From NCBI RefSeq assembly GCF_030123505.1, contig NZ_CP126115.1, positions 3,920,001 to 3,984,000 on the forward strand: DNA of 64,000 bases. Direction: 5' to 3'. The stretch is from Neobacillus sp. YX16. GTDB taxonomy: Bacteria > Bacillota > Bacilli > Bacillales > Cytobacillaceae. Shown one piece after another: positions 3,456 through 26,212 of the stretch; positions within the stretch are counted from its first letter, which is position 1, and each line of letters starts with the position of its first letter. The position numbers were made by a program, and so were the translations under genes. Below the pieces are notes generated by a model that was not told the DNA's origin, ran no database searches, and saw only the letters and a list, made by a program, of their open reading frames with translations.

Positions 3456-4490
3456 TTACCAACCAGGATACTTTTGGTGCCATTCCTCACTGTCTTCATA
3501 GGTCTTGACTAAATCATCTGCCAGTTGGCTCAATTCTTTTGAAAGTTCTACATCGCTAACCCAATTTTGCGGAATCCCATTGATTCCAAGATAAGCCCCT
3601 AAAATATTTCCGGTTATCGCTCCGGTACTATCACTGTCGCCATTATGGTTAACGGCTGTAAACACAGCTTTTTCAAAATCATCTTGATATTTTAAAGCGC
3701 TGTAGATGGAAATAGCAAGTGCCTCTTCACCGACCCAACCCTCTCCTAGACTTTCTATTGCTTGAATAACTGGTTTGTCTGATTTTACTAATGTGATTGC
3801 TTTTTCAATCAGCGTGCTGCATTCCTGATTTGATGGGTATTTTTTACACTCTTCCAAAGCTTGTTCCACAGCAATTTCTAAATTTATCCCCTCAATTATA
3901 GCTGCGATTATATAACTAAGCGCACCGGCAGAAAGGTATCCACTCGGATGTCCGTGTGTAATTGCCGCACTTTCACATCCTAGCTTGAATGCCTCCTCTT
4001 TCTTAAAAACCAATCCAATAGGGGCAGTCCGCATCACACCTCCGCATCCTTTACTATTATTGAGTGGTTCTTCCATGGTTCCCATTCTTCCTGAGATCAG
4101 TGCATCTAAACAGGTATTTCCAGGCGCTCTTCTTGTATGTAAAGCTTTTATTGAATGTATCCAGCCGTCCTTTTCTACGTCGTTGCCCACCCCTTGGGTA
4201 TTAAGCCAGCGTAAATAGCTTCTGTGGACCACCGACGGTATATGTGCTATTCCTTTGTTTCTGCCTCTATTTTCTGCTCGTAATAAACCCTCTGCAGTGA
4301 AAATCGTCATTTGTGTATCATCGGTTATTTCTACTAGATTACTTCTGCCTTTTACTAGGTTCGTTATCCCCTGTGTTCCGTATTTCCTTTTGATTTCATC
4401 CAGACGTAAAAATTCCACTGGCCATCCTAACGCATCGCCAATTGCCCCGCCAATCAGGCAGCCTCTAAACCGTTCATTTATTGTTTGCAT
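3456..4490 (-). CDS. ADP-ribosylglycohydrolase (DraG family)
   Basis: 344 aa, cytoplasmic, of the all-helical ADP-ribosylglycohydrolase family, which removes ADP-ribose from protein or nucleic acid targets using two metal ions. Visible motifs: GGAIGDALGWPVEF near the N-terminus, ITDDTQMT (metal-binding Asp pair) near residue 56, GCGGVMRTAPIG in the middle and the C-terminal HNGDSDSTGAITG holding the second Asp cluster (usually DSDT; here DSDS). Length is normal for the family. AGAGAGGTG precedes the ATG. No ADP-ribosyltransferase is seen nearby, so the substrate is unknown. Confidence 0.85.
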   Translation of the reverse strand: MQTINERFRGCLIGGAIGDALGWPVEFLRLDEIKRKYGTQGITNLVKGRSNLVEITDDTQMTIFTAEGLLRAENRGRNKGIAHIPSVVHRSYLRWLNTQGVGNDVEKDGWIHSIKALHTRRAPGNTCLDALISGRMGTMEEPLNNSKGCGGVMRTAPIGLVFKKEEAFKLGCESAAITHGHPSGYLSAGALSYIIAAIIEGINLEIAVEQALEECKKYPSNQECSTLIEKAITLVKSDKPVIQAIESLGEGWVGEEALAISIYSALKYQDDFEKAVFTAVNHNGDSDSTGAITGNILGAYLGINGIPQNWVSDVELSKELSQLADDLVKTYEDSEEWHQKYPGW

Positions 4491-4565: not shown

Positions 4566-5568
4566 TCATTGATTGGCTATTATCGTAATTGATTTGTCTT
4601 CTATTTTCTTTCCTTTAGAGTCATCCAATAGATTATTTAACATGATAGAAAATATTATGGTTTGTCCGCTTTTAGTGTAACGTAGCCGGATATGGTGCTG
4701 ACTGTTGAGATGGTTCCAGTCTTCGCAAATACCTTCTGTCTAAGCTCAGGACCTGACATCCGGTTACGTAAAGTACCGCCTTCCATTTTTTCACTTGCTC
4801 CTGCTATCGGTAGTGAATGAAGAAAAGCTGGAAACCATTTTTGCTGCTGAACTGCATATAACAATTGAGATAGTTGAGCTGCTGGAACTAAGTCGACATG
4901 AGAAATACCAGATCCATCCCTTAGTACCAAGGTTTTCGTGTTGATTCCGAATTTAGTTAACTCGGCTTCCATCACCTAAGACCCTTTTCCCAGCTTCCTT
5001 CCCCTTTCACCACTTTTCCCATCTCTTTAACCAAGGTTTCTGCATGGCCATTGTTGCTTAGCTTCATAAACGGGACCAGTAACTCAGACAGCATGATTGA
5101 GCTATGCGAATGTAGTATTCTTGCTGCGTCTGGTGTTGTCCCTGTCTCAACTTTTCCGGTAAATTGAATGCCTTGTTCGGTTAGGGATTGTTTAAAAAGG
5201 GCTAACGCATAACGTGTCGGCTCCCACACACCAATCCATTCCTTTTCTGGCTTGGCTTTAACAGGTAATGTGCCAGATATCGTAATCGTATTTTTGGCGT
5301 GTTCCCGTTCAAAGGTAATTTTCTTTTTCCCATCTGCAGGGACGGTTTCAGTTTGATTGATTATTTTTACAAAGTTCGTGTCAGGAGTAACTTTTACCTT
5401 GGTCTTATTACCTTTGTTATTGCCAGGCATCACCTCAATCATGACCGAGCCTGAATCAAAGTCTTTTGTGGGTGAAGCCGTAAATGCCGAAATTTGTGCA
5501 CCATAATAGGTTTGTTCATCACTCCAAGGTAAATCCGGCGAATACCGGACATCATCATACAAGATATC
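4566..5568 (-). pseudogene. C-terminal half of a split D-Ala-D-Ala carboxypeptidase (S13), frameshifted
   Basis: Homologous over its whole length to the intact S13 gene at 6579-8057, from the YDDVR motif to the C-terminus. It carries the SxN motif (SNNGHAE) and the KTG motif (KTGTIS), but not the N-terminal SxxK, which lies in the matching fragment at 20153-20620. Two frameshifts are visible: near 4977 (CTTAGGTGATGG, where a G seems lost after CTT, ending one frame at GSWEKGLR) and near 4657 (the tail FSIMLNNLLDD continues in another frame to a TGA at 4566-4568). Homology starts about 5559-5568, and upstream sequence is unrelated. It is not expected to give an active enzyme. Confidence 0.85.
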
Positions 5569-5569
5569 G

Positions 5570-6480
5570 TATCTTAATTGAATTGTACATTAAATAATTG
5601 TACATAGATTCCTTTTCTTACTCCTAGTTAATCGTTGATACACAAGGATTTTTATATACCCAAGAGAAAAAAGGGTTGTACACAAAATTTTTCTATTTAG
5701 CTATTAAATTTACCGTATTCTCTTAATGTGTCCATAACTGTGAAATGTACATAAAAGAATTTATTATTTAATTTTGAAAATATTATTTGGAATAATTAAT
5801 CCATTTATGTATGAATAAGTGACTATAAACTAAAGACTTTATTCAAGGGATTTTTAGTTAAGCCTTTATTGGTTTGGAGGAGGACATAGCCCATAGCGGG
5901 AGGCGTATCCGCAGATGCGAAGCATCGAGGACCTTAAAAATACGGTTAAATTAAGTAAATAATAATAAAAAAATATATGGGCTGTTATTGATCATATTGT
6001 TTGATGCTGGTTTGGCAGTATGGTTCTAGATTTTTGAATCATTTCTCAATACATAATAGTCATGCAGTGCATTTCATATTAACGGGGCTTTAGTGGAAAT
6101 AGCCTCTTATATTGCTCCAATACTCCTTTTGGAAGGACATGCCTCACTAGTTATGCCAATTGACAGTGGTAAAATTAAATTTAATGTAGTGAAATTTGGT
6201 GAGTGCTCAAATTGTAGGGATACATGATACCGTTAATTCCCTTTGCTGCTTCATTCTTGTGTGCAAGATGTATTAGAAATTGGTAATCTCATTCACAACT
6301 TGGGAGTAAAAATAATCTAATAATAGATTATTGAAATTATATATTTGATAAACAATTGTTACTTAACTAAGGAGGCATTTCTTAAAAGAGTGCTCATCAT
6401 CGAGGATTGTATAATTTAACAGATTTCGGTACTTTTCATATACACTCTAATCCGACAATATGCAATCGACTTTATACCAA
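5570..6480. other. Gene-poor left end of the insertion
   Basis: About 900 bp of AT-rich DNA without a convincing gene. Just inside the breakpoint the word TTGTACA or ATGTACA recurs (near 5583, 5598, 5675 and 5742). A short open frame on the plus strand at about 6063-6228 (reading AFHINGALVEIASYIAPILL) lacks a start and looks like a remnant; I do not recognise it. A GC-richer patch lies at about 5880-5930. Confidence 0.4.
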
Positions 6481-6521
6481 AAAAATGACTACAAATTATA
6501 CAATTATTAGTAGTCATTTTT
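6481..6521 (-). terminator. Terminator of the intact carboxypeptidase gene
   Basis: Arms AAAAATGACTAC and GTAGTCATTTTT pair perfectly around a 17-nt loop, and the minus strand continues with T residues. It lies about 60 nt downstream of the stop codon of the S13 gene. Confidence 0.7.
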
Positions 6522-6578
6522 CGGTGTGTTTTTTGTTAGACATTGGTAATGGGACTCATTTTGTTTCTAAGTTAGCAC

Positions 6579-8057
6579 TTATTTATGTTTTGCTATTATT
6601 TTCACTATTTTATCCTCGATGTCTTTTCCTTTTTCCTCATCAAGGAGATTGTTTAATAGAATAGAAAAAATAAGTATTTCTCCTTTTTGGGTTTCCACAT
6701 AACCAGATAAGGAAGATACAGTAGAAATTGTTCCTGTTTTAGCTTTTACGTTTAGGGATTCCATTCTTTTTCTCAAGGTTCCACCTACCATCCTATTACT
6801 ATCACCAGCGACTGGCAGGGATATTAAGAAAGTAGGAAACCATTTTTCTTTTTGTACATTAAACAAAAGCTTGGAAATTTCATTAGCTGGAACTAGGTTG
6901 ACATGAGAAATACCTGAACCGTCTCTAATTACTAGTGTTTCTGGATTTACCCCTAATTTGTAAAGCTGCTCATTTATTACTTCTAACCCTTTTTCCCAGC
7001 TACCTTCTCCTTTCCTTATTTTCCCCATTTCCTTAACTAAGATTTCTGCATGTCCGTTATTACTAAGTTTCATAAAAGGTATGAGGAGCTCGGATAATGG
7101 TATGGATAGATGACTTGTAAGAATTTTGGCATCCTTGGGTGTAACTCCTAACTTAGAGTTTCCCGATAGTTTAATCCCTTCTTTTGCTAATTTCTGATTA
7201 AAAAAATCAAGTACAAATTGGGTCGGTTCCCAAATTGCTATCCATTCTTTTTCCTTTTTTGCTCCGATAGGAAGAAAGCCCTTAACAATAATGGTATTTG
7301 AACCATGCTTTCGATCAATTGAAAGATCGGTCTCTCCATCGGGGGATACGGTCACAGCCTGATTAATTACATTTACATAATTTGTATTTTGTGAGAGTTT
7401 AATTTGTACGGGATTACCTATGTTCAATCCAGGAAATGCCTCTACAATAATAGTACCAGAATCAAAATCTTTAGTCGGAGAAACTGTTAGTGCGGAAATT
7501 TGAGATCCGTAATAAGCTGACTCATCACTCCAATTTAGATCACGAGATAATCGAACATCATCGTACCAGCTGTCGTCCCCAATAAGATCTCCCTCGATAG
7601 ATGTGATACCATTGGAATGGGCAATAAACTTAGTTAGTTGATCCAAATCTTCACCTAAAAGTGTTGGGTCACCAAAACCTTTTAAATACAGATTCCCCTT
7701 TAATATATTTCCGTCTCTTTTCCCGTCCATCCTAATTTCAGTCCTAAATTGATATTTTTCACCTAATACAGATAAAGCTGCTGCTGAGGTAAATAATTTC
7801 ATATTCGAAGCAGGTCTCATACGAACATCCCCATTATGCTCATATAGGACTTCGCCCGTACTTGCAGTACGAATGCTTATTCCTGTCAATCCTCCCTTTA
7901 AGATTGGTTCTTCCTGTAAAAGTTTGTTAATTTCTGTTTTTAAAATTTGATTTGATACATTTGCATAGAAATGAGAGGAAGGCGGTAGAAAAGTCGCCAA
8001 AATTGAAAATAACAAGATACAAAAGCCTTTTTTAATTATATTCAAACGATTCCACAT
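6579..8057 (-). CDS. dacC: D-alanyl-D-alanine carboxypeptidase/endopeptidase (PBP4a/DacC type, S13)
   Basis: 492 aa, exported low-molecular-weight penicillin-binding protein that trims peptidoglycan stem peptides. An N-terminal hydrophobic segment (about residues 12-32) is a signal peptide. The three active-site motifs are intact: SxxK (PASNMKL, about residue 83), SxN (SNNGHAE) and KTG (KAKTGTIS). The large insert domain typical of class C PBPs is present (KDFDSGTI and beyond). Length fits the DacC family. It shares roughly 60% of residues with the split copy on either side, so it is an older paralog and not a fresh duplicate. It lies inside the segment that interrupts that copy, so it may supply the lost activity. 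The ribosome binding site is poor. Confidence 0.9.
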   Translation of the reverse strand: MWNRLNIIKKGFCILLFSILATFLPPSSHFYANVSNQILKTEINKLLQEEPILKGGLTGISIRTASTGEVLYEHNGDVRMRPASNMKLFTSAAALSVLGEKYQFRTEIRMDGKRDGNILKGNLYLKGFGDPTLLGEDLDQLTKFIAHSNGITSIEGDLIGDDSWYDDVRLSRDLNWSDESAYYGSQISALTVSPTKDFDSGTIIVEAFPGLNIGNPVQIKLSQNTNYVNVINQAVTVSPDGETDLSIDRKHGSNTIIVKGFLPIGAKKEKEWIAIWEPTQFVLDFFNQKLAKEGIKLSGNSKLGVTPKDAKILTSHLSIPLSELLIPFMKLSNNGHAEILVKEMGKIRKGEGSWEKGLEVINEQLYKLGVNPETLVIRDGSGISHVNLVPANEISKLLFNVQKEKWFPTFLISLPVAGDSNRMVGGTLRKRMESLNVKAKTGTISTVSSLSGYVETQKGEILIFSILLNNLLDEEKGKDIEDKIVKIIAKHK

Positions 8058-8165
8058 CCAAATTGTTTTTAATAGATATCATTACCTGTTCACTTAATTC
8101 TAAAACCAGGACCTTTTTTATATTTATTAATAATTTTTTATATCATAGATTTTGCATAAATAAAT

Positions 8166-8199
8166 AAACAACCCAATGACACTACCATTAGGTTGTTTA
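8166..8199 (-). terminator. Hairpin, possible terminator
   Basis: Arms AAACAACC and GGTTGTTT extended by AATG/CATT with one mismatch. On the minus strand it follows the decayed HNH gene and is trailed by TATTTATTTA. Confidence 0.45.
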
Positions 8200-8214
8200 T
8201 AAAAATAACATCAT

Positions 8215-8299
8215 ATGCCTTGCCTTACCTCGCTTTACCTCACCCGACCGTACCAAACCTCTCCATGCCGGACCACCCCATAGGATGCCTCATTTAGCC
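8215..8299. repeat. Pentanucleotide-phased tract (NNNCC)17
   Basis: Cut into 5-nt units from 8215, 14 of 17 units end in CC (ATGCC, TTGCC, TTACC, TCACC, GTACC and so on); the exceptions are units 4, 14 and 16. On the minus strand this reads GGNNN. Because 5 is not a multiple of 3, every reading frame gives a 5-residue periodic peptide rich in G and R. No start, stop and ribosome binding site combination supports a gene. Confidence 0.75.
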
Positions 8300-8311
8300 T
8301 ATCATCATCAG

Positions 8312-8357
8312 CGACAGGTCGGCTAATACCTGTCGGACAGGGAATAATGAACCCTGT
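8312..8357. repeat. Two adjacent perfect hairpins
   Basis: CGACAGGT/ACCTGTCG at 8312-8319 and 8328-8335, then ACAGGG/CCCTGT at 8337-8342 and 8352-8357. They lie between the 5-nt tract and the HNH remnant. Neither is followed by a T run, so they are not obvious terminators. Confidence 0.6.
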
Positions 8358-8379
8358 TTCGAATTCCATGACTGTATTT

Positions 8380-8700
8380 TTATTCCTTCCAAATTTGTTC
8401 TCTCCAGTCTGAAGTAATGAAACCGTCCTTTAATGCTTTTCCAATCATTCCACGATGTCTTCTATCAGCTCTTAAAACATGACAGTGTCGACATAGAGTT
8501 CTTAAGTTTTTAATTTTATTGGTTCCTAATTTTCCACTAATTTTATGATCAATATGAGCTTTGTTTAAATTCCTGAGAATGCTCCAGCATCCTTACAAAT
8601 TGTCGCCATAATTTCTGGTGCTATTAATGAATCATCCCACATACTTTTAAAACTTGCTTTCCATCCAGAATTAAGCGCCAACCTATATCTTATGTTCCTT
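8380..8700 (-). pseudogene. HNH endonuclease remnant
   Basis: The C-terminal part reads KAHIDHK...NLRTLCRHCH, a classic HNH core (His-Asp-His, Asn, then the CxxCH zinc/metal site), and ends RADRRHRGMIGKALKDG...SDWREQIWKE before a TAA at 8380. Upstream, another frame gives WKASFKSMWDDSLIAPEIM and ICKDAGAFSG; the two are separated by a frameshift at about 8570. No start codon with a ribosome binding site is found. It was probably a phage- or intron-type HNH nuclease and is now inactive. Confidence 0.7.
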
Positions 8701-8777
8701 GCCTAATCTATTTTAGTAAAATGTAATTTTTTCTAGAGAAAATTCCTCCTAAATTCAATCAAAATCTAGTTTCGAAA

Positions 8778-8915
8778 TTACATCTCCATATTACTAGCCA
8801 TCAATTCAGCCTGTTTTACTACCGTTTCAACCGCCATTTTCTGAAGGTCAGGTGGATAGCCATATTTATTTAACAATCTTCGAACAGTAATTCTCATTTT
8901 AGCTCTTGCAGATTC
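8778..8915 (-). pseudogene. C-terminal fragment of a type I restriction subunit HsdR
   Basis: Only the last 45 codons remain: ESARAKMRITVRRLLNKYGY, then PPDLQKMAVETVVKQAELMA and a TAA. The pattern RAKMR-VRRLL-KYGYPPD-Q-AVE-V--QAELM is the usual C-terminus of type I restriction-modification R subunits. Nothing upstream continues it, and no hsdM or hsdS is present. It marks a former restriction locus in the insertion. Confidence 0.65.
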
Positions 8916-9134
8916 AAGGCAATAACTCCTCTAAAATAACGTTTAAGGAGATTATTATGGCAACCTAAGATACTATAAAAATATTAAGAAATAATTCATA
9001 GCAATTAATAAACAGACTGCCGAAATATACATAAAATAAATACCAGAAACATATTTGCTATCACAATTATTGGAGTTTTATGATCCCTTTTTCCCTTATG
9101 CATTCCCCCATTGAAATATCTGCTGTTGAACAAC

Positions 9135-9163
9135 AAAAAGACGTATATAGAAACACGTCTTTT
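9135..9163 (-). terminator. Terminator of the duplicated-domain protein gene
   Basis: Arms AAAAGACGT and ACGTCTTTT around an 11-nt loop, about 125 nt downstream of the minus-strand stop at 9289. The T run belongs to the stem end. Confidence 0.5.
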
Positions 9164-9288
9164 CATCAATATTTATTATTCCTTAGGTCCACTTTTTTAC
9201 AAAGCAAAATTCTTACATAATGGAAGCAAACAGCAATCTTATCATGTGAAAATGTACAAATTCGAATATAATGGACCATTAAAGATCA

Positions 9289-10374
9289 TCATACTAACCG
9301 GATTCGAAAATATACATTTACTAGTTGGTCACTTTGTGAAAAGGATAAGTAAAAATCTCTCCAATTACCACTAAGCTCATTCACTGGTATACTTAACTCC
9401 CTTTGTTCCATATCATCGTCCTCATCCAAAGGAAGCGGATCACTTTCCCATAAATGCCCCTCCAATTTAAGAGGTTCGCCTGGATCCAAACGGATTGTTT
9501 TTTGCACACGAATCGGATAAAGATTCCCTTCTCTAATGGTTACAGCATTCGATGGGTCTACATTCCACAACAAAGTATCCTTTGCTTTTAGCCACCCGTA
9601 AATGGCCAAACCAGCACCTTCATAATCACCTGATCTGTTGTTATGGATACCCACTAGCAACACTTCAGCTCTAACAGGATTCTGTCTGTAGGGATTATTG
9701 AGATGATGATGCGGTATATAGTAAGTACTTTGACTATTATGGAAACTGGAAATCCTGGAGTCAATGGATTTGACTTCAAAATAAACATCAACGATCTGAT
9801 CAAGTTCTTTAAACCTTAGAGTATATCTTCGCGGTTCTGAGGCAATTTCATGAAAAGGTATCATGATTTCTCTATATTTCATATCATCATGTGGATCAAG
9901 AGGAGGAGAGTCTTGATCCCATAAATGTCCCTGCAGTTTCAATGGTTCGTTTGGATCCAACACTATGTTTTTATACTCAAGAATGCCAAAAAGATTTCCT
10001 TCTTTAATGTTCACAGGATTCATTTCCGTACTATGCCAAATTAAATTATCGTTAGCCATTAGACTACCATAGATCTCTAAATCATACCCTTCATATACAC
10101 CTGTGCTTTTACAGAAAATCCCTTCTAAGAACACTTGAACTGTTTTTGGCTGTCTATTTTGATGATTCATAAATGAATGAAGATGATGGGAATTACCTGG
10201 ATTAAGATGGTAAAAAGGAACAATATATTCTGGATTTTTTATCCATCCGTGCGAAACATGGGCTTTGGGATATGAATTGGGATACCACCTATATGGTGCC
10301 GAAATTGGTACATGATTGAAATGGGACTGATGGGATGGCCAGTGATTTGATGAAAAAAAAGGATAATAAAACAA
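9289..10374 (-). CDS. Protein with two copies of an unknown domain and a His/Tyr/Pro-rich start
   Basis: 361 aa. Residues 1-75 are rich in H, Y, P, N and S (coat-protein-like). Two copies of a roughly 125-residue domain follow, about residues 77-205 and 235-361. They share VLLxGI, SGxYEGxxLxIYG, NLIWxxxxxNxVxIxEGNL, LDPxEPLKLxGHLW, PLDxxDDMxxRE and a final VxVYFxxK strand. No signal peptide or membrane helix is seen. The start is TTG with GGAG about 10 nt upstream. The composition and the LysM neighbour suggest a spore-surface or wall-associated role, but that is inference; I do not recognise the domain family. Confidence 0.7.
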   Translation of the reverse strand: MFYYPFFSSNHWPSHQSHFNHVPISAPYRWYPNSYPKAHVSHGWIKNPEYIVPFYHLNPGNSHHLHSFMNHQNRQPKTVQVFLEGIFCKSTGVYEGYDLEIYGSLMANDNLIWHSTEMNPVNIKEGNLFGILEYKNIVLDPNEPLKLQGHLWDQDSPPLDPHDDMKYREIMIPFHEIASEPRRYTLRFKELDQIVDVYFEVKSIDSRISSFHNSQSTYYIPHHHLNNPYRQNPVRAEVLLVGIHNNRSGDYEGAGLAIYGWLKAKDTLLWNVDPSNAVTIREGNLYPIRVQKTIRLDPGEPLKLEGHLWESDPLPLDEDDDMEQRELSIPVNELSGNWRDFYLSFSQSDQLVNVYFRIRLV

Positions 10375-10661
10375 AAAATGTCACTCCTTATCTTGTTCTT
10401 GCTTTATTCCTTTTATCATATACAAAGATAAATATATAGTAGATTGTCTAAATCAAATAATTATCCAAAAAGTCTCATTCGTTAGTAGTGCCTAAAGCCT
10501 AATTAGCTTCATTGAACGAAATGGGCTTTCCCTATTTCATTTGAATAAATGTCATTTACGCAAATAGATTCCAAAGCATATTCCCATTTTGATGACATAC
10601 AGATGTAGATGTAACCAATCTGCAAAGTCAATATTATCCTCATTAGAATAGGTGGTAGGCT

Positions 10662-11210
10662 ATGGGAAGAATTCCTACTTTTTGTCCACCAGGTTTTACT
10701 CGTTATATGGTAGGGAAAGGTGATTCCATGTATTTGATTGCTCGTCGTCTAAGGGTAAGTACAGGTTTCATTATTGCAAACAATCCACACATTTCCAATC
10801 CGCTGAAAATTTATCCAGGAGATTTACTATGCGTACCTGAATATATTGAATTGCCATGCTGCACGGTGTTAAAAAGCCCAATACCAAGCATCCATACAAA
10901 TGGACTTGGAGTTGCATTAGCTGATCACCTCGCTAATGGTGAACAATCAGTAAGCATCCTTGCAAAGGGTTTGCCTACCCCTAACCAGTTTGGTAACTAT
11001 GATGCCTATGAAGGATTTATTACTTTCCCTGGAATTGGCAGTTATCATTTTATGTTGTACTCCACTCCTGAAATACAACCAACATGGTCACGCACATTAA
11101 CGATACCTCAACCATTGTTTTACAAGGGGGCCGTTGTACAAGTTAGGACTACGAATTCGGCTGCTCCAGTGTCACCGCATATCGTGCTTATTGGAACACT
11201 ATGTAAATGA
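10662..11210 (+). CDS. LysM-domain protein
   Basis: 182 aa. One LysM peptidoglycan-binding domain spans about residues 12-58 (RYMVGKGDSMYLIARRL...IANNPHI..PLKIYPGDLLCVP). The C-terminal 110 residues form a beta-rich domain ending IVLIGTLCK, which I do not recognise. There is no signal peptide, a common situation for proteins assembled on the spore from the mother cell side. AGGTGG precedes the ATG. It heads the plus-strand part of the accessory cassette, 840 nt before the first giant gene, with a small opposite gene between them. Confidence 0.75.
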   Translation: MGRIPTFCPPGFTRYMVGKGDSMYLIARRLRVSTGFIIANNPHISNPLKIYPGDLLCVPEYIELPCCTVLKSPIPSIHTNGLGVALADHLANGEQSVSILAKGLPTPNQFGNYDAYEGFITFPGIGSYHFMLYSTPEIQPTWSRTLTIPQPLFYKGAVVQVRTTNSAAPVSPHIVLIGTLCK

Positions 11211-11337
11211 AAGGTGGAGGATATCCCCACCCTTTCATTCCCCATTTTCCTCTAATATTGTAGACGATAGATGTATTTACAAACATAAAACGCTGCTAAT
11301 CTCATACACTATATCTTTGTATCAATAGCAACATATT

Positions 11338-11769
11338 TTAATATCTTGCTTTTGGATAAAGCACTGGGATCTCCGCTGCAGAACCACCTGGTAAAAATAC
11401 TTCATAGGGGATTAAAAAGTAAATACCCTTGTTTCCACCTTTATTATTCACGGTAAAAATAACTCTACTTCCCAGCTTTACAATGCCAGAAATTGCGGCT
11501 ATTATTCCATCCTCTACTTCAGTAAGAACTCCCATTGAAACCAACCCAGATGCAATGAGGGCAGCATTAGAACCCTGGATTATCATTTCATCCAGCCATT
11601 TTGTGGTTTTATCATCAAAAGCCAATATCGCATATCGACGCGACCAACTAAGCCCTACTGGCGGTCTATAAGAGTCTTCTCTGTTAAAGACCAGGTTTAC
11701 AGGCGGGGGGGTGTTGGGATATGCAGGCATATTCCAGTAACCATAGTAGCGATATGGTTTGTACCTCAA
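11338..11769 (-). CDS. Small protein with Tyr/Pro-rich start, unknown
   Basis: 143 aa. The first 25 residues (KPYRYYGYWNMPAYPNTPPP) resemble coat-protein leaders; the middle (about residues 65-95) is hydrophobic and glycine-rich (SNAALIASGLVSMGVLTEVEDG, IIAAISGIV), perhaps one membrane-associated hairpin. The start is TTG behind GGGAGGTATTATT. It is oriented against the LysM gene and divergent from the 1031-aa gene. No family recognised. Confidence 0.6.
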   Translation of the reverse strand: MRYKPYRYYGYWNMPAYPNTPPPVNLVFNREDSYRPPVGLSWSRRYAILAFDDKTTKWLDEMIIQGSNAALIASGLVSMGVLTEVEDGIIAAISGIVKLGSRVIFTVNNKGGNKGIYFLIPYEVFLPGGSAAEIPVLYPKARY

Positions 11770-12049
11770 AATAATACCTCCCTTTTTATTCCATCATTAA
11801 GATGTACCCCAGTCTATGTCCTTTAACATCTTAACGTGCGAAAGATTTCCATACCAATCCCCATTTAATTGACAAATTTCCTATACTCAAATAATGCTAA
11901 CGTGGTTCTTATCCCCGATGGCAGGAAGATGCATTTCGTTTGTGGTCTATCACCATTCCTCGATACATAGTTATAATATGAAGTGAATTTTTTATCTAAG
12001 CAATCTTCTTCATGCTAATCCTTTTTTTAAAAAGAAAGGAGCGAAAGCT

Positions 12050-15000
12050 TTGTCTAATAATAATCTTTTTATCCGAGTTTTACGGAAAGAAGACTTCTTA
12101 GACTTGATTTTTGAACTCGTCAATATTCACACGAATGGATACCCGCTTCGCCTTGTCAGGCGTAATGCAGATGAACCGGTATTATTAATCGTTCACTTTC
12201 CCGCACAACATATCGTAGAAGAAATTTTTTCAGAAGCAGAACCTTCTGTAAGTCCAATCAAAGCGATGCTTTCCGGTCCAAGCCGACTGGTGTTCGAGCT
12301 TCCTGAGGATGAAAACAACTGGCCGCTTACAATGGAAACATTGCTTAACTGGAAGAATTACAAACCCGTGGTTCCAAAACTGCCAAATCCAGATCCATCA
12401 AAGCCATTTACTCCACATTTTCCAGAGATTTTTGAGGGAAAGACTACACTGGAAATCCCAACAGGACTCTATCTTTCTCCTGAAGAATCTGGCGTTTGGT
12501 ATCATCTCATTCACCCGGAGGGACAAGATGGCCGATTTGTGTTATGGCATACAGAGCTTGGAGAAAAGCAGAAAGAAAATGAAAACACTTTTCGTGAAGG
12601 CGGCACAACAAATCTGATTACTGCATCTAATCATCATATCCCATTTAACAGTGCCCCTACCCAGAAACAGCTTAATGAAATTGTAAAGTTAACAACAGAT
12701 TACTCAATGCCAAAACCTCCAAGCGGGATATCGAAAGAGGCTTGGCAAAACAAATTAAACGAACTTCGTATTCCAAATCCTTACATTCCCAGTCCTATTA
12801 ATCTACGACGTCTGATACTCTCTACTGCAGGAGCTTGGTCAAACTTAGAGGGTGTATGGAATTACCCAACGGTTTTTGATAAAACACTTGGTTATGAAAC
12901 ATTATCCCTAGAAGGATGGCAGCAGATTATCACCCAGGGGAGAGACCAATTTGTTAAAACAACAGAAAAGGCCGTTCTATGTGATACAGGGCATGCCGTA
13001 TCGATTGTAACCATTACGGAACGACGATTTGAGCGGATTTCAACCGCTCAGATGGGGGCCCAAGCGGTTCTTAGACAATATAGGTACATCGAAGTCCGAG
13101 AGCCTGTGAAAAATTACGAAACTCTTACTCCAGCGTACCTAAAAGAACGTCGAGAAATGCCTTATAAATGGATACGGATCACAACCCGTAAAACTCCCAA
13201 TCTGGTTCCCAGCGGAAAATATCCGTGGCCTGTGAACTTAGGTGATCCTATCCCTTCATGGCCTATAGGTGACGCGACGCCGTTCTGGCCAACCGAGATG
13301 AATAAAGAGCCCTTTCTCTTCAAAATGGTCGCAGAAGATTGGGAAGGGAACACCGTTTCCTTTGAACGGCCTCTTTTGTGCGTTCCAATCAAGGAAAAAA
13401 TGCCGCCTTGGGATCAATTAGTTTCTATCTATAATAATGATGCCAACTTTGTTCCTTTACGAAAGGTCCCATTAAACAACCAGCCGATTGCATTTGCTAA
13501 AACCGAGAATGACAGTAAGGGGAAAACCACACTTGAAACAGGAACAATGACGTTTAATGCACAGCTTGTTAAAGGTGAAAAAGAAAATGTGTTAAACAAA
13601 TTGTCTTACTATAACCCTAGGTTTCTTCCGCAAGTTGAGTCAGCGGAAGTGAACATCCCTGCTGCTGAACAGGTAGCTGGTCGAAAATTAGATAGTAAAT
13701 CAATTAAATTTGAAGAAGCTTATTTAAATCATGGTTTTCATCCTACAAATAATAAAGGTGAAGTTTTTGCAGGGCTTACTGAAAAGTTAGGACTATCTTT
13801 ACCTACAGAGAAAGCCGGCGGGCTCATCACTCCTAATACCACGATTGGGGGATTGTCGAGAGCGCTCGGTCCAGTCGCAAACCCAGCCGACATTATTAAA
13901 GGGCAGTTCAACCCAGCAGCATTATTTGAGAAAGCCAGATTTCTGGGAGGAATTACACTACAGGACATTCTGCCAAAGGTTCCTATAAACATTGATCCAC
14001 TTAAAATAAAGGAGTTAGAATCAGCTTTAAAACCTGAACAGTTAATACAGAAACTGGATGATCCAAATTTCAAGTTAGAAGCTCCTATGCTAACGAATCG
14101 ACGTCTGCAAAATAATGCGATAGAAACACGCTTTTTATGGAAACCAAGTATTGAAAACTGGAAAGATCCAACAGGTTTCTTTCAATTCTTAGCTAAAGGT
14201 GTAACAGGATTTGATCGTCCAGCTCAGTTAAGCATTAATGTACAAATGATTACTGCGCCAGACGGCAGCCCTCCAACCTTCATGGTACAAGGAAAGTTAC
14301 AAGATTTTGCTTTGGAGTTTATCGATACTTTGCTGCTTAAATTTTCTGCGTTAAGGTTTTCTGCTGGAAATGGTAAGAAAATGGATGTCAGTGCAGAAGG
14401 ACTCGACCTTGTATTTCAGGGGCCGCTAAAGTTTGTTGAAACCCTGAAAAACATTATCCCTTCTAATGGCTTTTCCGACCCTCCATTCATCAATGTAACA
14501 GCATCCGGCGTGACGGCAGGCTTCACGCTTGGGATTCCGTCTTTCGGTGTAGGTATTTTCAGCATACAGAATATCAATCTTTCGGCCGCTCTGTCTCTTC
14601 CCTTTGTCGATCAGCCAGCGGGTGTCAGATTTGCCTTCTCTGAGCGTCATAATCCTTTTAATGTCTCAGTAATGGGTTTTGCCGGCGGAGGTTTCTTTGC
14701 TTTTGCCCTCAATGCGAAGGGGATTGAAGCGATTGAGGCATCAATCGAATTTGGCGGAAATATCAGCATTAATCTCGGAGTCGCCAGTGGCGGTGTGTCT
14801 GTGATGGCCGGCATTTACTTCGGAATGATCGGGGAAGAAGTAAAACTAACCGGTTACGTGCGCGCCAGCGGCAATGTAACGGTTCTGGGTTTGGTTTCAG
14901 TGACCGTTGAATTTTACATTAGCCTCACTCTCCGTAAGAAAGAAAATGACAAAGTGGAAGTTTGGGGCCAGGCATCTTTATCGGTTGGCGTTAAGATCGC

Positions 15001-15145
15001 ATTTTTTAGTAAAAGCGTGACCCTCACAGTGGAGCGCAGATTCGCCGGAGCAGCAGGAGATCCCACTTTTGCACAAATCATGGGCCCTGACCAACCAGGC
15101 GGCTATCCCTTTGAATGGGAAAAATATTGCATGGCATTTGCCTAA
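12050..15145 (+). CDS. Giant protein A, unknown function (1031 aa)
   Basis: No signal peptide. The N-terminal 560 residues are mixed and proline-rich; about residues 265-330 hold AGAWSNLEGVW and the line TGHAVSIVTITERRFERI. Residues 700-1010 are a run of amphipathic, glycine-rich beta strands (GVTAGFTLGIPSFGVGIFSI, GGFFAFALNAKGIEAIEASI, SVMAGIYFGMIGEEVKLTGY), as in beta-barrel or beta-helix walls. The start is TTG, with AAAGGAG 8 nt upstream. The second giant gene starts 54 nt after the stop and has its own ribosome binding site, so the two very likely form a unit. From memory, similar long proteins occur in distant bacteria, but I could not search. Function unknown. Confidence 0.8.
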   Translation: MSNNNLFIRVLRKEDFLDLIFELVNIHTNGYPLRLVRRNADEPVLLIVHFPAQHIVEEIFSEAEPSVSPIKAMLSGPSRLVFELPEDENNWPLTMETLLNWKNYKPVVPKLPNPDPSKPFTPHFPEIFEGKTTLEIPTGLYLSPEESGVWYHLIHPEGQDGRFVLWHTELGEKQKENENTFREGGTTNLITASNHHIPFNSAPTQKQLNEIVKLTTDYSMPKPPSGISKEAWQNKLNELRIPNPYIPSPINLRRLILSTAGAWSNLEGVWNYPTVFDKTLGYETLSLEGWQQIITQGRDQFVKTTEKAVLCDTGHAVSIVTITERRFERISTAQMGAQAVLRQYRYIEVREPVKNYETLTPAYLKERREMPYKWIRITTRKTPNLVPSGKYPWPVNLGDPIPSWPIGDATPFWPTEMNKEPFLFKMVAEDWEGNTVSFERPLLCVPIKEKMPPWDQLVSIYNNDANFVPLRKVPLNNQPIAFAKTENDSKGKTTLETGTMTFNAQLVKGEKENVLNKLSYYNPRFLPQVESAEVNIPAAEQVAGRKLDSKSIKFEEAYLNHGFHPTNNKGEVFAGLTEKLGLSLPTEKAGGLITPNTTIGGLSRALGPVANPADIIKGQFNPAALFEKARFLGGITLQDILPKVPINIDPLKIKELESALKPEQLIQKLDDPNFKLEAPMLTNRRLQNNAIETRFLWKPSIENWKDPTGFFQFLAKGVTGFDRPAQLSINVQMITAPDGSPPTFMVQGKLQDFALEFIDTLLLKFSALRFSAGNGKKMDVSAEGLDLVFQGPLKFVETLKNIIPSNGFSDPPFINVTASGVTAGFTLGIPSFGVGIFSIQNINLSAALSLPFVDQPAGVRFAFSERHNPFNVSVMGFAGGGFFAFALNAKGIEAIEASIEFGGNISINLGVASGGVSVMAGIYFGMIGEEVKLTGYVRASGNVTVLGLVSVTVEFYISLTLRKKENDKVEVWGQASLSVGVKIAFFSKSVTLTVERRFAGAAGDPTFAQIMGPDQPGGYPFEWEKYCMAFA

Positions 15146-15199
15146 ATAGTTGATCTTTAAAAAATATTTAATGAAAACTAAAGGATAAAGGAGTTTTGT

Positions 15200-18100
15200 A
15201 TGGTCAATCAAAGGCTTCTTTGGATTGCACTCCCAAATGGAATGCAAATAGATGGAAACAACCGATATTTGCGGCTATCTGCTTACGTAAATCCGCGTTT
15301 ATATTCGGAAAAGGAAACAACATTAGCATCTTTTCCAGACTTTCTTAATTGGGCCTACCGCACACATCCAGACCGGTTAACATTTGAACTTGAGGTACAT
15401 GACGGAACACAAACCAAAGTGATCCCGACACACAGAGTGTCATCTCCTCCCAATCAAGGGCTATGGCAATCCCTTTTCCGGCAGGATATTCCTGTTCATC
15501 CGCATGAATTTGACGACTATTCCAGTCGGCCAATCGTGAGTTATCCGGTGAAAGACGTGTTAAATTATACGAAGGCTTTATATCAAAAGCTTATGAAAGA
15601 ATCACGCCATGACCTGCCTCCAATAATTACTCCAAAAGGTTCAAATGGAGTCAGTATGGGAATGGATCGATTCATCAATGAACTGGTTGAACTGCATAAG
15701 CGCTTTCGTTCTCATGGGATCAAAACAGAAAAGGACTTAAGCACGCAGTTGAACAAATCTATCGAGGAAGCCAAAGTCATAGCCCGCAGGCGTCGTATCT
15801 CAGGAAGAACTGGAGATGCCATTATCCCAAAGTTTCCTTTTCCTCCGGAACCACAGCCGGGTCCAAAGGGTCCAGCAACTCCGAAGGGTTCAAGCGGCCC
15901 AAGGAGTCCGGATGACGACGAATTATACTTACGATTTCCCAGCGATCCACGTAATCAAGATGTTCAAGACGCCTATTACCGTACGATGCTCTATCACTAT
16001 CGATCAGCCGATGCTAAGCCGGCTGCCATGCCTGATGGCCCTGAGGCCAATGCTCACTTTGAGAAGGAAATCGACTTTCATCAAATGCTCTCAGCCTTAG
16101 GTGATTATCCTGAGATACTGCGCCGTTTAGGTCTTGTGATGGATTTTTATATTCCAGTTGATGCGATCCCTAAAACAAATAACAATGCCGGTACATTTAA
16201 ACTGCGTATCGTACCAAAATGGATTTCCCAGTCCCATAACGGTTCTTTTCCTGGGAATGGAGGTCAGCCTTCTTTTCAAAACGGCTCTTTTCCTGGTAAT
16301 GGGGGTCAGCCTTCTTTTCAAAATGGATCTTTTCCTGGGAATGGAGGTCAGTCTTCTTTTCAAAATGGATCTTTTCCTGGGAATGGTGGTCAGTCTTCCT
16401 ATCAAGACAGTCGAGCTCCCGCGACGGAAGATTATTGTCCGTGGACGGCTTATGACTATCGGGAGAAAAATGGTACCGTACTATTTTCGGCCTACTCTTC
16501 AACAAAAGAATTAGATGGAGGAATCTGGATTCCCAAAAAAGAAGACATTGAATTAGTTCAAGTGGATGTGGATGGTGCTGCACTCAAGACCTTAAACCTC
16601 GCTTCAACCGTCGCAGCTCAAAAGGATAAAAAGGTAAACGATAAGCCCATTGATGCAGAAGAAAAAGCGGGTGTCTCTCCTCTGCGCAACGGCGGGATCT
16701 CGGTTGTACGGAATAAGAATGCCAACAATTTAAACACTATTTTTAACCGCTCGAACAAATTGAATGGGATGCTGGATGGTCCTCCTAAACTGGATAATCC
16801 CCTCTTTGCAGAAGATCTTTTACGCGGGTACCGCTTAGATGTAACTGATCAATATAATAATCGAAATTCTTTGCACCGCCGGCTTGGTCAATATAAACTG
16901 CTAAATATTGGACGTTACTTGGAATTTTCGGATGAGGGATTTATACAGCCTAGCGTGACTAGTCCGCCTCAGACAGGTGATCCTGTTAGCCAACTTTATA
17001 TTCACGAGTCGCTTTTCACTTGGGAAGGCTGGAGTTTGTCAGCTCCCCGGCCTGGCAAAAGTATTAGCAGTACGGCCAGTGCGCCCAATCCAAACGAGCC
17101 CGATACGATGCCGCAGAAAGTGGATAACACAGCGATGACAAAGCTTGGACTGGAGACAAACTTTTCCGTCATACCTGGGACTTTGCCTCGTCTCCGGTTT
17201 GGAAATGAATATACCTTCCGTGTCCGAACGGTTGATTTAGCCGGAAATGGACCAGCGATGGACGAAGCACAAAAGATTGAAGCGGCATTAGGGCTTAATC
17301 AAACAGCGATCGGTACGATTAAGTACCTCCGTTTTGAGCCCGTCAATCCTCCGGAACTTGTTCCGAGACAGCTTTATAGTCCAAGTGGAAATCTGAATCA
17401 TCCAGACACAACCGCCTATGCGGAAGGTGAATCATTAGAAAGGCTCGTGATTCGCAGCAACTATGACCAAAGCACTGAAGAATATACTGCGGCCCACCCT
17501 GTCTATCTGCCTTTTAACGAGAGACATGTTGCACCTCCAAAAGTATCGCTTCAATTGATAGAGGAGCATGGGCTGCTCGATGGAGCCATTGATGTAAAGT
17601 ATAGCGGCATGCCGCCAGGTCAGATTCGCAGTGTCATCCAGAATTTCTATTACTTGGCTGCACGCGAGTCAGGCACGTTCAATGATATAACATCACCGTC
17701 TGTTCGCTTTATTCGCACTAGCTCTGACCCTTCATCGACCGATGGTTATGCGGTTCATACTGAGGAGCAACTGATTCTTCCTTACTTGCCGGAACCATGG
17801 ATTTCGGGGGTGATGTTTGAAGGACTTCCCGGTGGAGGTCCTAACGATTTGTTTTTCGTAGAGGTAAAAGGAAACACATGGTATGAGCCAAAGCTGTTCC
17901 GCATTCGTATCGTTGAAGGTTCAAATGAACCCCTGTGGGATGAAAGAACCCGTGTTCTTACAATCTATCTCCCGAAAGCAACGATCGCAACCAATATTCG
18001 CGTCAGCTCTACATTTGGAGGAAATCTTCCAGATATGGGGCTTTTGCAGTGGGTGAAAGATGACAAAGCAAACTGGACCAACGAAGATCTGTTGAAACTG

Positions 18101-19666
18101 GAAAAAGAAATTTATGCCGGCCGCAACTGGTTGTTCACCCCTTTTCGGGAGATTTCTCTTGTTCACGCTGTTCAGCAGCCACTTGATTTCCCATCGCAGC
18201 CTATTCTACAAGTAAGACCACGTGAGAAGAATAATACGTATGCTTATCTCTTTGGAACCATCTTTGTCCATATCCCTAGCACCTCCAAGGTGGATATTCT
18301 TGCCGAATGGACAGAAAGAATGGATGATGTCACGAAAATAGAACCAGTATTAGAACCAGTCCCATTCAGTGGTCATGTGATGGAATTACCGATTTGGCTG
18401 GACGACGGAAAAGAGGTTAAGATCGAAAGTAACCCTAATGCCTTACGATTGGAGGCTAACCAATCACGTCTAGTCTTCAACAGTTTTGAAGCGAAAACGA
18501 TCCATGATACCTTGTTAAAGAAGCCCGTAACGCCGGAAAATCAGGCACAAATTAATTTGGCAAGCAAAGTAGAGAAACAGGGATTTGGCGATACGAAGTA
18601 CAGGCGTGTCCATTACAAAGTTAGAGCGACAACACGCTTCCGTGAGTACTTCCCGCCAAACATGCCAAACGAGAGCCTTGTCCGCGATACGCAAGAGATT
18701 GAAATCGATATCCTTAGCACCGCTAGGCCTTCGAAACCTTTAGTTAAATACGTCTTGCCTACCTTTTCTTGGAGTCAACGGAATGAAGATGGAACAAAAG
18801 TGACAAGTATGCGAAAAGGAGGAGTCCGGATTTATCTTGACCGCCCTTGGTGGTCTTCGGGTGACGGTGAGATGCTGGGAGTTGTGGTACTCGAAAATAA
18901 ATCACCCGATCATTCGGAGGCTATTTACAGTTACTTGACTTTTTGGGGTCAGGATCCTATCCGCGAATCACCCCGACTTCCGCTAACACACATAGCAGAT
19001 TTTAAGAATGCTAAGAAGATTTATGATGCTCGTTTGTTTGAACTTCCAAATCACTTTGTAAAGGTCGTTTGCTTCGAAGTCAATTGGGATCGTGAACGCA
19101 AGCTATGGTATTGTGACCTAGAACTAAATACCGGCAATGCCTACTACCCATTTATTCGCCTTGCCCTTGTCAGATTCCAGCCAAATTCGTTGATCATATC
19201 GAATCCAGCTCCTGAAGATTTACGTATCTCGCCCGTCGTGCTTGCTGACATCGTTCAAACGTCACCAGATCGTTCCTTAACCGTAACAAGGGATCCAAAT
19301 CATCCAGGAGTCTACAATGTCTCGGTAAGCGGTGTAACGTATTCGAAAAAGAAACAAAACACACCTAACAATACAGTAGAACCTGCTCCGAGTGTGATGA
19401 ATCTTCAACTCCAACGCCAGCTTTCCGAGATGGTGGATGATACCCTCGGCTGGGAGGATGTGCCAAACTTTGATGAAATCGTGCTCAAGCCAGGCACCCC
19501 TAATTCAAATGGTGTGGTCGTATGGGAAGGCAAAGTAACCAATCCTGAGGAAAATCGAGGATATCCATTGCGACTGGTTGTCAAAGAAATGGAAATATTT
19601 TACGGTGCACACCCAACTCAAACTTTTCAACGCAACGTATATATGGATATCATTTACTTAAAATGA
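15200..19666 (+). CDS. Giant protein B, unknown function (1488 aa)
   Basis: No signal peptide. N-terminal 130 residues read WIALPNG..., YLRLSAYVNPRLY, FPDFLNWAYRTHPDRL. A Gly/Pro linker (about residues 215-235) and, at residues 347-402, four 14-residue repeats NGSFPGNGGQPSFQ follow. The rest (residues 403-1488) is mostly beta-rich, with a line resembling an Ig/fibronectin-type strand (FGNEYTFRVRTVDLAGNGPA, about residue 670). AAAGGAG precedes the ATG. It follows giant protein A by 54 nt. A structural or assembly role with its partner is likely, but I know of no assigned function. The stop codon is butted against a degraded IS1182-type gene on the other strand. Confidence 0.8.
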   Translation: MVNQRLLWIALPNGMQIDGNNRYLRLSAYVNPRLYSEKETTLASFPDFLNWAYRTHPDRLTFELEVHDGTQTKVIPTHRVSSPPNQGLWQSLFRQDIPVHPHEFDDYSSRPIVSYPVKDVLNYTKALYQKLMKESRHDLPPIITPKGSNGVSMGMDRFINELVELHKRFRSHGIKTEKDLSTQLNKSIEEAKVIARRRRISGRTGDAIIPKFPFPPEPQPGPKGPATPKGSSGPRSPDDDELYLRFPSDPRNQDVQDAYYRTMLYHYRSADAKPAAMPDGPEANAHFEKEIDFHQMLSALGDYPEILRRLGLVMDFYIPVDAIPKTNNNAGTFKLRIVPKWISQSHNGSFPGNGGQPSFQNGSFPGNGGQPSFQNGSFPGNGGQSSFQNGSFPGNGGQSSYQDSRAPATEDYCPWTAYDYREKNGTVLFSAYSSTKELDGGIWIPKKEDIELVQVDVDGAALKTLNLASTVAAQKDKKVNDKPIDAEEKAGVSPLRNGGISVVRNKNANNLNTIFNRSNKLNGMLDGPPKLDNPLFAEDLLRGYRLDVTDQYNNRNSLHRRLGQYKLLNIGRYLEFSDEGFIQPSVTSPPQTGDPVSQLYIHESLFTWEGWSLSAPRPGKSISSTASAPNPNEPDTMPQKVDNTAMTKLGLETNFSVIPGTLPRLRFGNEYTFRVRTVDLAGNGPAMDEAQKIEAALGLNQTAIGTIKYLRFEPVNPPELVPRQLYSPSGNLNHPDTTAYAEGESLERLVIRSNYDQSTEEYTAAHPVYLPFNERHVAPPKVSLQLIEEHGLLDGAIDVKYSGMPPGQIRSVIQNFYYLAARESGTFNDITSPSVRFIRTSSDPSSTDGYAVHTEEQLILPYLPEPWISGVMFEGLPGGGPNDLFFVEVKGNTWYEPKLFRIRIVEGSNEPLWDERTRVLTIYLPKATIATNIRVSSTFGGNLPDMGLLQWVKDDKANWTNEDLLKLEKEIYAGRNWLFTPFREISLVHAVQQPLDFPSQPILQVRPREKNNTYAYLFGTIFVHIPSTSKVDILAEWTERMDDVTKIEPVLEPVPFSGHVMELPIWLDDGKEVKIESNPNALRLEANQSRLVFNSFEAKTIHDTLLKKPVTPENQAQINLASKVEKQGFGDTKYRRVHYKVRATTRFREYFPPNMPNESLVRDTQEIEIDILSTARPSKPLVKYVLPTFSWSQRNEDGTKVTSMRKGGVRIYLDRPWWSSGDGEMLGVVVLENKSPDHSEAIYSYLTFWGQDPIRESPRLPLTHIADFKNAKKIYDARLFELPNHFVKVVCFEVNWDRERKLWYCDLELNTGNAYYPFIRLALVRFQPNSLIISNPAPEDLRISPVVLADIVQTSPDRSLTVTRDPNHPGVYNVSVSGVTYSKKKQNTPNNTVEPAPSVMNLQLQRQLSEMVDDTLGWEDVPNFDEIVLKPGTPNSNGVVVWEGKVTNPEENRGYPLRLVVKEMEIFYGAHPTQTFQRNVYMDIIYLK
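16238..16405 (+). repeat. Four 42-bp in-frame tandem repeats
   Basis: Units at 16238, 16280, 16322 and 16364, each 42 bp and each coding for NGSFPGNGGQ(P/S)S(F/Y)Q. Units differ by a few silent changes and P/S or F/Y swaps. The length keeps the frame, so copy number can change without breaking the gene. Confidence 0.9.
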
Positions 19667-19668
19667 AA

Positions 19669-19990
19669 TACGGGACGGTTCGAGGCCACTGAAAAAGTCC
19701 ACGTTATTCTGGAATCCTCCTGACTTAGACAGTGTTTTTTGAAGAATATAGTAATGAGATTAACAGGAAACAGTAATTTCGAGGATAGTATCTTTGCTAT
19801 CCTCTTTAAATTTACTGCTATTTCGGTTAATTACGCTTCCCTAGTCATGCTTTTTAGACCATACCCCCTGGCACGACCTAGTCCGTGAAAATTTTTCATC
19901 TAGCCGTTTTTCCACTCCTGGCAAGCTCTTTTCTAATATTCTTCTTTAAACTCTTCCGTTTTTTGTGCCTGGCTGTACCATAGAATTCCG
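19669..19990 (-). pseudogene. IS1182-type transposase C-terminal remnant
   Basis: The minus strand reads KNFHGLGRARGYGLKSMTRE, a TAA in frame, then LTEIAVNLKRIAKILSSKLL, DSRITWTFSVASNRPVFHFK and a stop. HGLGRARGYGL followed by AVNLKRIAK is the usual C-terminus of IS1182-group transposases, and the last residues match their typical TFS-xAS-RP ending. The upstream part is broken by stops. It sits directly behind giant gene B and about 160 bp from the right breakpoint of the split carboxypeptidase. Confidence 0.75.
19781..19808 (+). terminator. Hairpin downstream of giant gene B
   Basis: GAGGATAG/CTATCCTC with an 8-nt loop followed by TTTAAATTT. It could end the giant-gene transcript, but it lies in the old transposase frame, so it may be coincidental. 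Confidence 0.4.
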
Positions 19991-20006
19991 GGGTAATTAT
20001 ACTAAC

Positions 20007-20125
20007 CATTCAAATTCTTCGGTATTAGCTGGTAATGAATTGCCCTATCTGGTCTTTCAATTAATCCACATCCAACGGACTTTGGAAGTTGTTTCACAAA
20101 GTGCACTGCTATTTGTTGGGAGTAA
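20007..20125 (-). pseudogene. Possible winged-helix regulator fragment
   Basis: An open minus-strand stretch without a good start reads SQQIAVHFVKQLPKS, then GLIERPDRAIHYQLIPKNLNG and a TAG. The pattern S-Q-x-VxxHxKxL...GLIExxxxRxxxYxL resembles the recognition helix and wing of ArsR-type regulators. It is short and the match is loose, so this is a guess. Confidence 0.3.
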
Positions 20126-20152
20126 AAAATAATGTTGTACTTACGTTTTTTA

Positions 20153-20620
20153 TTAAGATTCTCCTCCGTCACCGATTAAATTTCCGTTTATTTTTTTAAT
20201 GCCCAATTTCTTAATTTCGGCAGCCATTTTATCTAAGTCTTCTTTTAGAAGAGTGGGGTCACCCTTGCCTTTTAAATAAAGGTTACCTTGAAGCGTCTTC
20301 TTCTTTACTTTACCGTCTGTGAGTATTTCCGTTTTAAACCTATAATCCTGCCCTAAAACAGATAGTGCTGCAGCGGCTGTTAGTAGCTTCATGTTTGAAG
20401 CGGGACGTAGGCGGACATCTCCTAAATGATCATAAATAACGTCACCAGTATCTGCAGAACGTATGCTGATTCCTGCAATAGCCCCATGTAAATCGGGGTC
20501 TTCATTTAACAGCTGATTCAACTGATGAGTTAGATTATTTTCTGCGAGTACAGGATATGATTGTGGGACCAATGCTGCAATTAATAAAATAAGAACAATC
20601 AAATTCAATCTTTTCAGCAA
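20153..20620 (-). pseudogene. N-terminal half of the split D-Ala-D-Ala carboxypeptidase (S13)
   Basis: 155 codons: a signal peptide (about residues 5-26), then the S13 N-terminal region with the nucleophile motif SxxK (PASNMKLL). It aligns with residues 1 to about 160 of the intact paralog up to LIGD; homology stops at about 20168 and the frame ends GGES-TAA. The rest of this gene is found 14.6 kb away at 4566-5568, on the same strand and starting with the very next motif (YDDVR). It lacks SxN and KTG, so it cannot be an active enzyme alone. The start is TTG; promoter and ribosome binding site are not clear. Confidence 0.85.
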
Positions 20621-26118: not shown

Positions 26119-26212
26119 ACAATGCACTTCACTTTCTTCTGAAGTATTTTTCACTAATATTATCATTACATAAAAATGGATATTTTAGAAATAATTGTTG
26201 ATAAAATTTAAA

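Follow-up and report, generated by a model that had tools for sequence, protein, structure and literature searches.

A 14.6-kb mosaic insert splits the native peptidase S13 gene of a Neobacillus genome and carries an intact S13 gene of another clade

The native gene for a peptidase S13 of the PBP4 type, as assigned by profile match, is divided in the soil bacterium Neobacillus sp. YX16 by about 14.6 kb of DNA that holds a second, intact S13 gene. Positions below refer to the window, the whole stretch of 64,000 nucleotides that was analysed (NZ_CP126115.1, positions 3,920,001 to 3,984,000), and the features are collected in Table 1. We put at roughly 82% the probability that an acquired mosaic broke the native gene while bringing a probable substitute, leaving a permanent, fairly recent scar. 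Horizontally acquired mosaic DNA entered the native S13 gene of this Neobacillus lineage, and the S13 gene of another clade that it brought along has probably taken on the enzyme's task.

The two native parts read as one gene. The frame at 20153-20620(-) matches Pfam S13 positions 2-121 (2.1e-44), that at 4972-5562(-) positions 125-311 (1.9e-46) and that at 4655-4975(-) positions 315-410 (7.7e-31), with a third short frame of the C-terminal part supplying the C-terminal tail; the N- and C-terminal parts meet in the profile at 121/125 and abut without overlap. In a tree in which the parts were entered as separate rows, the N-terminal part and the first C-terminal piece both group, on the native Neobacillus side, with L044, the S13 locus of genome G019 (98/90), where the TTG start and the sequence upstream of it are also the same. 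An S13 search of the YX16 genome itself returned both parts and the intact copy and, at another place, a weak class match of 25 bits. A sequence-only reading had taken the fragments for complementary, collinear halves of one gene, with two frameshifts in the C half; the abutting ranges and the common grouping with L044 bear this out, and the frameshifts are one-base events near 4979 and 4678. Because the insert leaves SNMK on one side and SNN and KTG on the other, and the C-terminal part is frameshifted twice, the native gene is, on its sequence, a pseudogene. The frameshifts may either have followed the insertion or have come with it. Base errors are an unlikely cause, since all nine flanking genes compared with L044 align unbroken and in one frame, which argues against a general error of this kind.

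The gene is intact elsewhere in the genus. S13 is present in all 61 genomes searched, and in 59 of the 60 other than YX16 at least one match spans the profile in a single frame; in G036 the match lies in two adjoining frames. Twenty kilobases around S13 were fetched from 10 of these 60 genomes, and the gene is whole in every one. Alignment extends over both flanks of the break in eight of the fetched loci, and in all eight, where a GH18 gene adjoins S13, the native parts adjoin: window positions 5568 and 20169 lie one base apart in five (L036, L038, L039, L042 and L044), with 4, 6 and 21 unaligned bases between them in L041, L043 and L037, respectively. L040 and L045 hold whole S13 genes without a nucleotide match to the N-terminal part. 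Since the gene is whole in relatives and its parts adjoin there, about 14.6 kb must have been inserted, as had been proposed on grounds of simplicity. G034, labelled as the same species, has a whole S13 gene without the insert, its flank at this locus being only 91.5% identical to the window. Five genomes (G014, G016, G021, G023 and G028) have apparently double-domain S13 proteins, their frames of 802-990 aa each giving two S13 matches.

The surroundings of the locus show some variation of their own. An ADP-ribosylglycohydrolase gene (3456-4490) sits between S13 and HIT and was not found in the 10 fetched loci by tblastn at E 1e-8; read by eye, L044 seems to retain a remnant of its C-terminus at that place. 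The RNA-repair genes for Pnkp and Hen1 lie beside the S13 locus at 22175-26166 and are kept in 7 of the 10 fetched loci.

Only the trinucleotide ACG, in minus-strand reading, is repeated at both ends of the insert, and the short shared core that had been suggested at 5560-5580 and 20140-20170 comes down to these 3 bp. Longer matches around the junctions, direct or inverted, occur just as often between randomly chosen sites of this region; among candidate inverted repeats, an 8-bp match, ATTAAGAT, is put down to chance, being reached by 26 of 293 and 82 of 292 random pairs. As the native parts adjoin in relatives and the ends share ACG, the alignments show an insertion that removed no target sequence and duplicated at most 3 bp. 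A 3-bp end repeat would fit a staggered cut of the transposase type or end joining, either of which may have been the entry route. Campbell-type integration through S13 homology, which predicts two chimeric S13 genes, is rejected because one S13 gene here is uninterrupted and the fragments of the other are both native and complement each other. The tandem S13 copies of G005 and G016, considered as a source of the pair in the window, were discarded as well: both copies fall on the native side of the tree.

Table 1. Features of the split S13 locus in window coordinates
Feature	Position	Strand	Remarks
Native S13, C-terminal part	4572 (about)..5568	-	SNN and KTG motifs; three frames through two one-base frameshifts
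Inserted segment, 14.6 kb	5569..20168	.	Minus-strand ACG at each end (20167-20169, 5568-5570)
288-bp stretch	6099..6386	-	89% identity with an unrelated site in G048
Intact S13 xenolog, 492 aa	6579..8057	-	SNMK 84, SNN 332, KTG 440
HNH nuclease fragment	8380..8592	-	
HsdR-type relic	8778..8930	-	Type I restriction subunit C-terminus
361-aa protein	9289..10374	-	No family
182-aa LysM protein	10662..11210	+	Weak SafA/ExsA-like spore-coat match
143-aa protein	11338..11769	-	No family above cut-off
1031-aa protein, first of conserved pair	12050..15145	+	No family match
1488-aa protein, second of conserved pair	15200..19666	+	No family
IS1182-type relic	19672..20012	-	Transposase C-terminus with stops, plus end repeat 19672-19701
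Native S13, N-terminal part	20169..20620	-	TTG start, signal peptide region, catalytic SNMK motif

The intact S13 gene lies in the same orientation as the native one, matches Pfam S13 positions 2-443 (1.2e-128) and passes the curated cut-offs of PF02113 (430.1 bits; cut-off 22.8) and TIGR00666 (377.9; cut-off 107.8). The catalytic motif set of S13 enzymes consists of SxxK, SxN and KTG, and all three are present. This copy had been called an intact paralog; intact it is, but it is a xenolog belonging to another S13 clade and no duplicate of the host's own gene. Its identity is 53-59% with the S13 proteins of genus loci L006-L045 (59% with a partial second S13 copy listed among the genus loci), 78% with the S13 protein of genome G049 and 81% with its best database hit. 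Its clade includes Schinkia, Mesobacillus maritimus, Bacillus shivajii and one Neobacillus niacini record, with support of 100/99 for 27 rows and of 100/98 for 14 rows in a separate tree that includes G049; 6 of 193 family genomes, this one included, pass E 1e-190 with the xenolog, and a genome-collection scan yielded one relative (62%). S13 genes on the Bacillus plasmids NZ_CP154897.1 and NZ_CP083717.1 are 51-53% identical to it. Between the xenolog and the G049 gene, changes at codon positions 1/2/3 number 73/41/192, a position 2/3 ratio of 0.213 beside a native mean of 0.204 (sd 0.039; C region, 66 pairs of 12 native relatives), and by this measure the xenolog is under purifying constraint. 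The three motifs and the purifying ratio make it very likely a working enzyme; it has probably taken over the role of the native gene, and it is plausible that the host keeps its S13 activity in this way. PBP4a of B. subtilis, encoded by dacC, belongs to the same peptidase S13 family as the xenolog; unlike dacC, the locus described here holds two S13 alleles of two clades. Class-C PBP mutants are reported to have no laboratory phenotype (PMC4604126), so that the loss of such an enzyme is tolerable.

The insert as a whole is a mosaic, in which the xenolog is accompanied by a pair of large genes and by remnants of three others (IS1182 transposase, HsdR, HNH nuclease), and its GC content runs from 0.30 to 0.45, the large pair standing at 0.43-0.45 against 0.36-0.38 around it. 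Homologues were found for both members of the pair (89 for the 1031-aa and 75 for the 1488-aa protein), and of 12 plasmid records with the 1488-aa gene, 9 have both genes, about 2.3 kb apart or less, the records with the pair coming from Rhizobium, Streptomyces, Cupriavidus and Diaphorobacter; in two plasmid relatives the annotated regions read "hypothetical protein" only. Among 193 family genomes, the pair is full length in only two, and G018 has only 11939-19657 of the insert, at another locus and 81% identical. The 1031-aa protein has no match in Pfam, PHROGs, NCBIfam or PADLOC, no relative in the genome-collection scan and none in any phage record, and its predicted structure (pLDDT 80.5, pTM 0.67) has no convincing fold match in the PDB (best TM 0.34 among the matches listed) or among viral proteins. 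The 1488-aa gene contains 42-bp tandem repeats at 16235-16444. At the edges of the insert, 5569-6579 has no plasmid match and 19670-20168 one short one; Rfam returned nothing in window positions 1-30000. The insert resembles genomic islands with restriction-modification and IS debris in its mosaic of relics, its two large rare genes and its cargo pair of higher GC, yet no integrase, tRNA site, plasmid or phage backbone was recognised in it.

How the insert arrived, and whether it can leave, could be seen differently. IS1182 might have transposed into the gene, other DNA then accreting at the IS: a relic of such an element, with one end repeat, lies 157 bp inside the left junction. That end repeat recurs in 12 of the 60 other genus genomes. 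The relic is truncated, however, and no member in working order, scoring 54.2 bits against an NF033551 cut-off of 270 and covering only positions 427-488 of 488, although it exceeds the PF13751 cut-off (30.6 over 25.1). Moreover, the IS is not at the insert junction, no second copy of the relic exists in the genome, and the window holds one IS end only, even with up to three mismatches allowed, where a composite transposon would have two flanking IS copies. We regard this route as unlikely. An assembly artefact is barely credible: nothing was found in its favour, the genome is a single 6.23 Mb contig with a completeness of 99.99, and the native flanks stand in order on both sides of the insert.

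In skin (sigK), SPbeta (spsM) and gin (gerE), too, foreign DNA splits a host gene in spore-forming Bacillaceae, and the insert could be an element of that kind, excised during development so that the gene is made whole again. It sits cleanly within a gene of a spore former, neither native part shows relaxed constraint, and its genes include one for a LysM protein that weakly matches the spore-coat type; gin likewise lacks phage genes (PMC5595907). Those elements, however, have serine recombinases and att repeats, neither of which was found for this insert, and their genes are rejoined. A six-frame search of it (C1:3925569-3940168) gave no match to PF00239 or PF00589; genome-wide there are 14 Phage_integrase domains, the nearest integrase lying at C1:3984386, just outside the window, and three Resolvase domains, which occur only in frames of 195-221 aa, so that by PF00239 the genome has no large serine recombinase. 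By comparison, gin spans 28.6 kb with three recombinase genes and has a 9-bp consensus within an imperfect inverted repeat of 27 bp (PMC5595907), and SPbeta has a 16-bp core (PMC4191935), whereas the junctions here share the 3-bp ACG, with longer words at chance level. The two frameshifts deny the C-terminal part an open frame, S13 is no known sporulation-specific gene here, and the insert, unlike skin, SPbeta and gin, carries a whole replacement gene and would itself supply the activity. Developmental excision is thus very improbable. The sequence-only reading had preferred a permanent scar, as we do, on seeing no recombinase gene and two frameshifts; the former holds for Resolvase and Phage_integrase domains but overlooks the IS1182 transposase relic. 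With no sign of a mechanism to remove the insert, we read it as a permanent scar.

The scar appears to be fairly young. With L044 as sister and seven outgroups, changes at codon positions 1/2/3 on the window branch number 2/0/7 in the N-terminal and 12/5/18 in the C-terminal part, and those on the L044 branch 4/2/9 and 16/16/26; the native parts show no relaxed constraint, the window branch being no looser than that of its intact sister. Since the split gene has drifted no more than the intact one, either the gene was broken recently compared with the divergence from G019, or it remains in use, an option that the frameshifts argue against. Decay of the C-terminal part, suggested by comparison with L044 alone (position 2, 28/330 vs 2/150, Fisher p 0.0018), is rejected because the branch count puts most of the excess on L044's own branch.

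A second genome, G049, offers a parallel. Hen1, Pnkp and GH18 follow the order of the window (82-89% protein identity), and between the stop codons of GH18 and S13 lies a block of 18.7 kb that ends in an S13 gene of the foreign clade (loci L080 and L092). The block includes ATP-grasp and glycosyltransferase genes, names that come from reading the translations, with no family search behind them. After S13 come a 173-aa gene, other genes and then HIT, nfo, CBS and the 212-949 gene. The 173-aa gene is 92% identical in L044, where the native S13 precedes it, and G049 is 59-76% identical to L044 up to and including S13, then 85-97% from near the S13 stop through the 173-aa gene. Native S13 was not found in G049, which has one S13 match in the genome and no native copy in L092. 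With a foreign S13 in both the window and G049, the locus has received one twice. Xenologous gene displacement in situ is the substitution of a native gene by a foreign homologue; the complete exchange in G049 is of this kind, whereas the window keeps both genes, and there the xenolog arrived on the same segment that breaks the native copy.

It is conceivable that S13 itself anchors such exchanges, cargo with its own S13 replacing or interrupting the native gene and the incoming S13 serving as homology arm or as compensation. A foreign S13 of the same clade stands at the same locus in G049 with the native copy gone, identity to L044 jumps at the end of S13, the foreign S13 occupies the HIT-side end of the block in both genomes, and S13 genes ride on Bacillus plasmids, in the two records given above. 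Against this, there are two cases only, and their cargo is unrelated; the breakpoints differ, the native gene being cut midway in the window and gone in G049; the two xenologs are not nearest kin, the G049 gene grouping with P0079 and P0082; L081 is a member of the xenolog clade without similar cargo; and the ends of the window insert are not homologous to S13. We consider an S13-anchored mechanism quite unlikely, and the comparison of the two loci is suggestive of repeated exchange of S13 plus neighbouring cargo. Equally doubtful is the broader proposal that the Neobacillus S13 locus is a landing site where blocks bring their own S13, destroying or displacing the native one, and their cargo becomes fixed because the host requires the enzyme; if true, that cargo would be a giant two-gene system here and a spore-coat-like ATP-grasp/glycosyltransferase set in G049.

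The reading of an acquired mosaic that both broke and probably replaced the native gene offers a natural case of a gene disrupted by the same DNA that brings its substitute, at a stage when the broken copy shows no decay yet, while G049 shows the exchange at the same locus complete. As it stands, with two cases, this is mostly genome history, ordinary in kind, and the pattern is worth a survey. If the pattern recurs, it would mean that an incoming block may become hard to lose by taking over a cell-wall function of its host.
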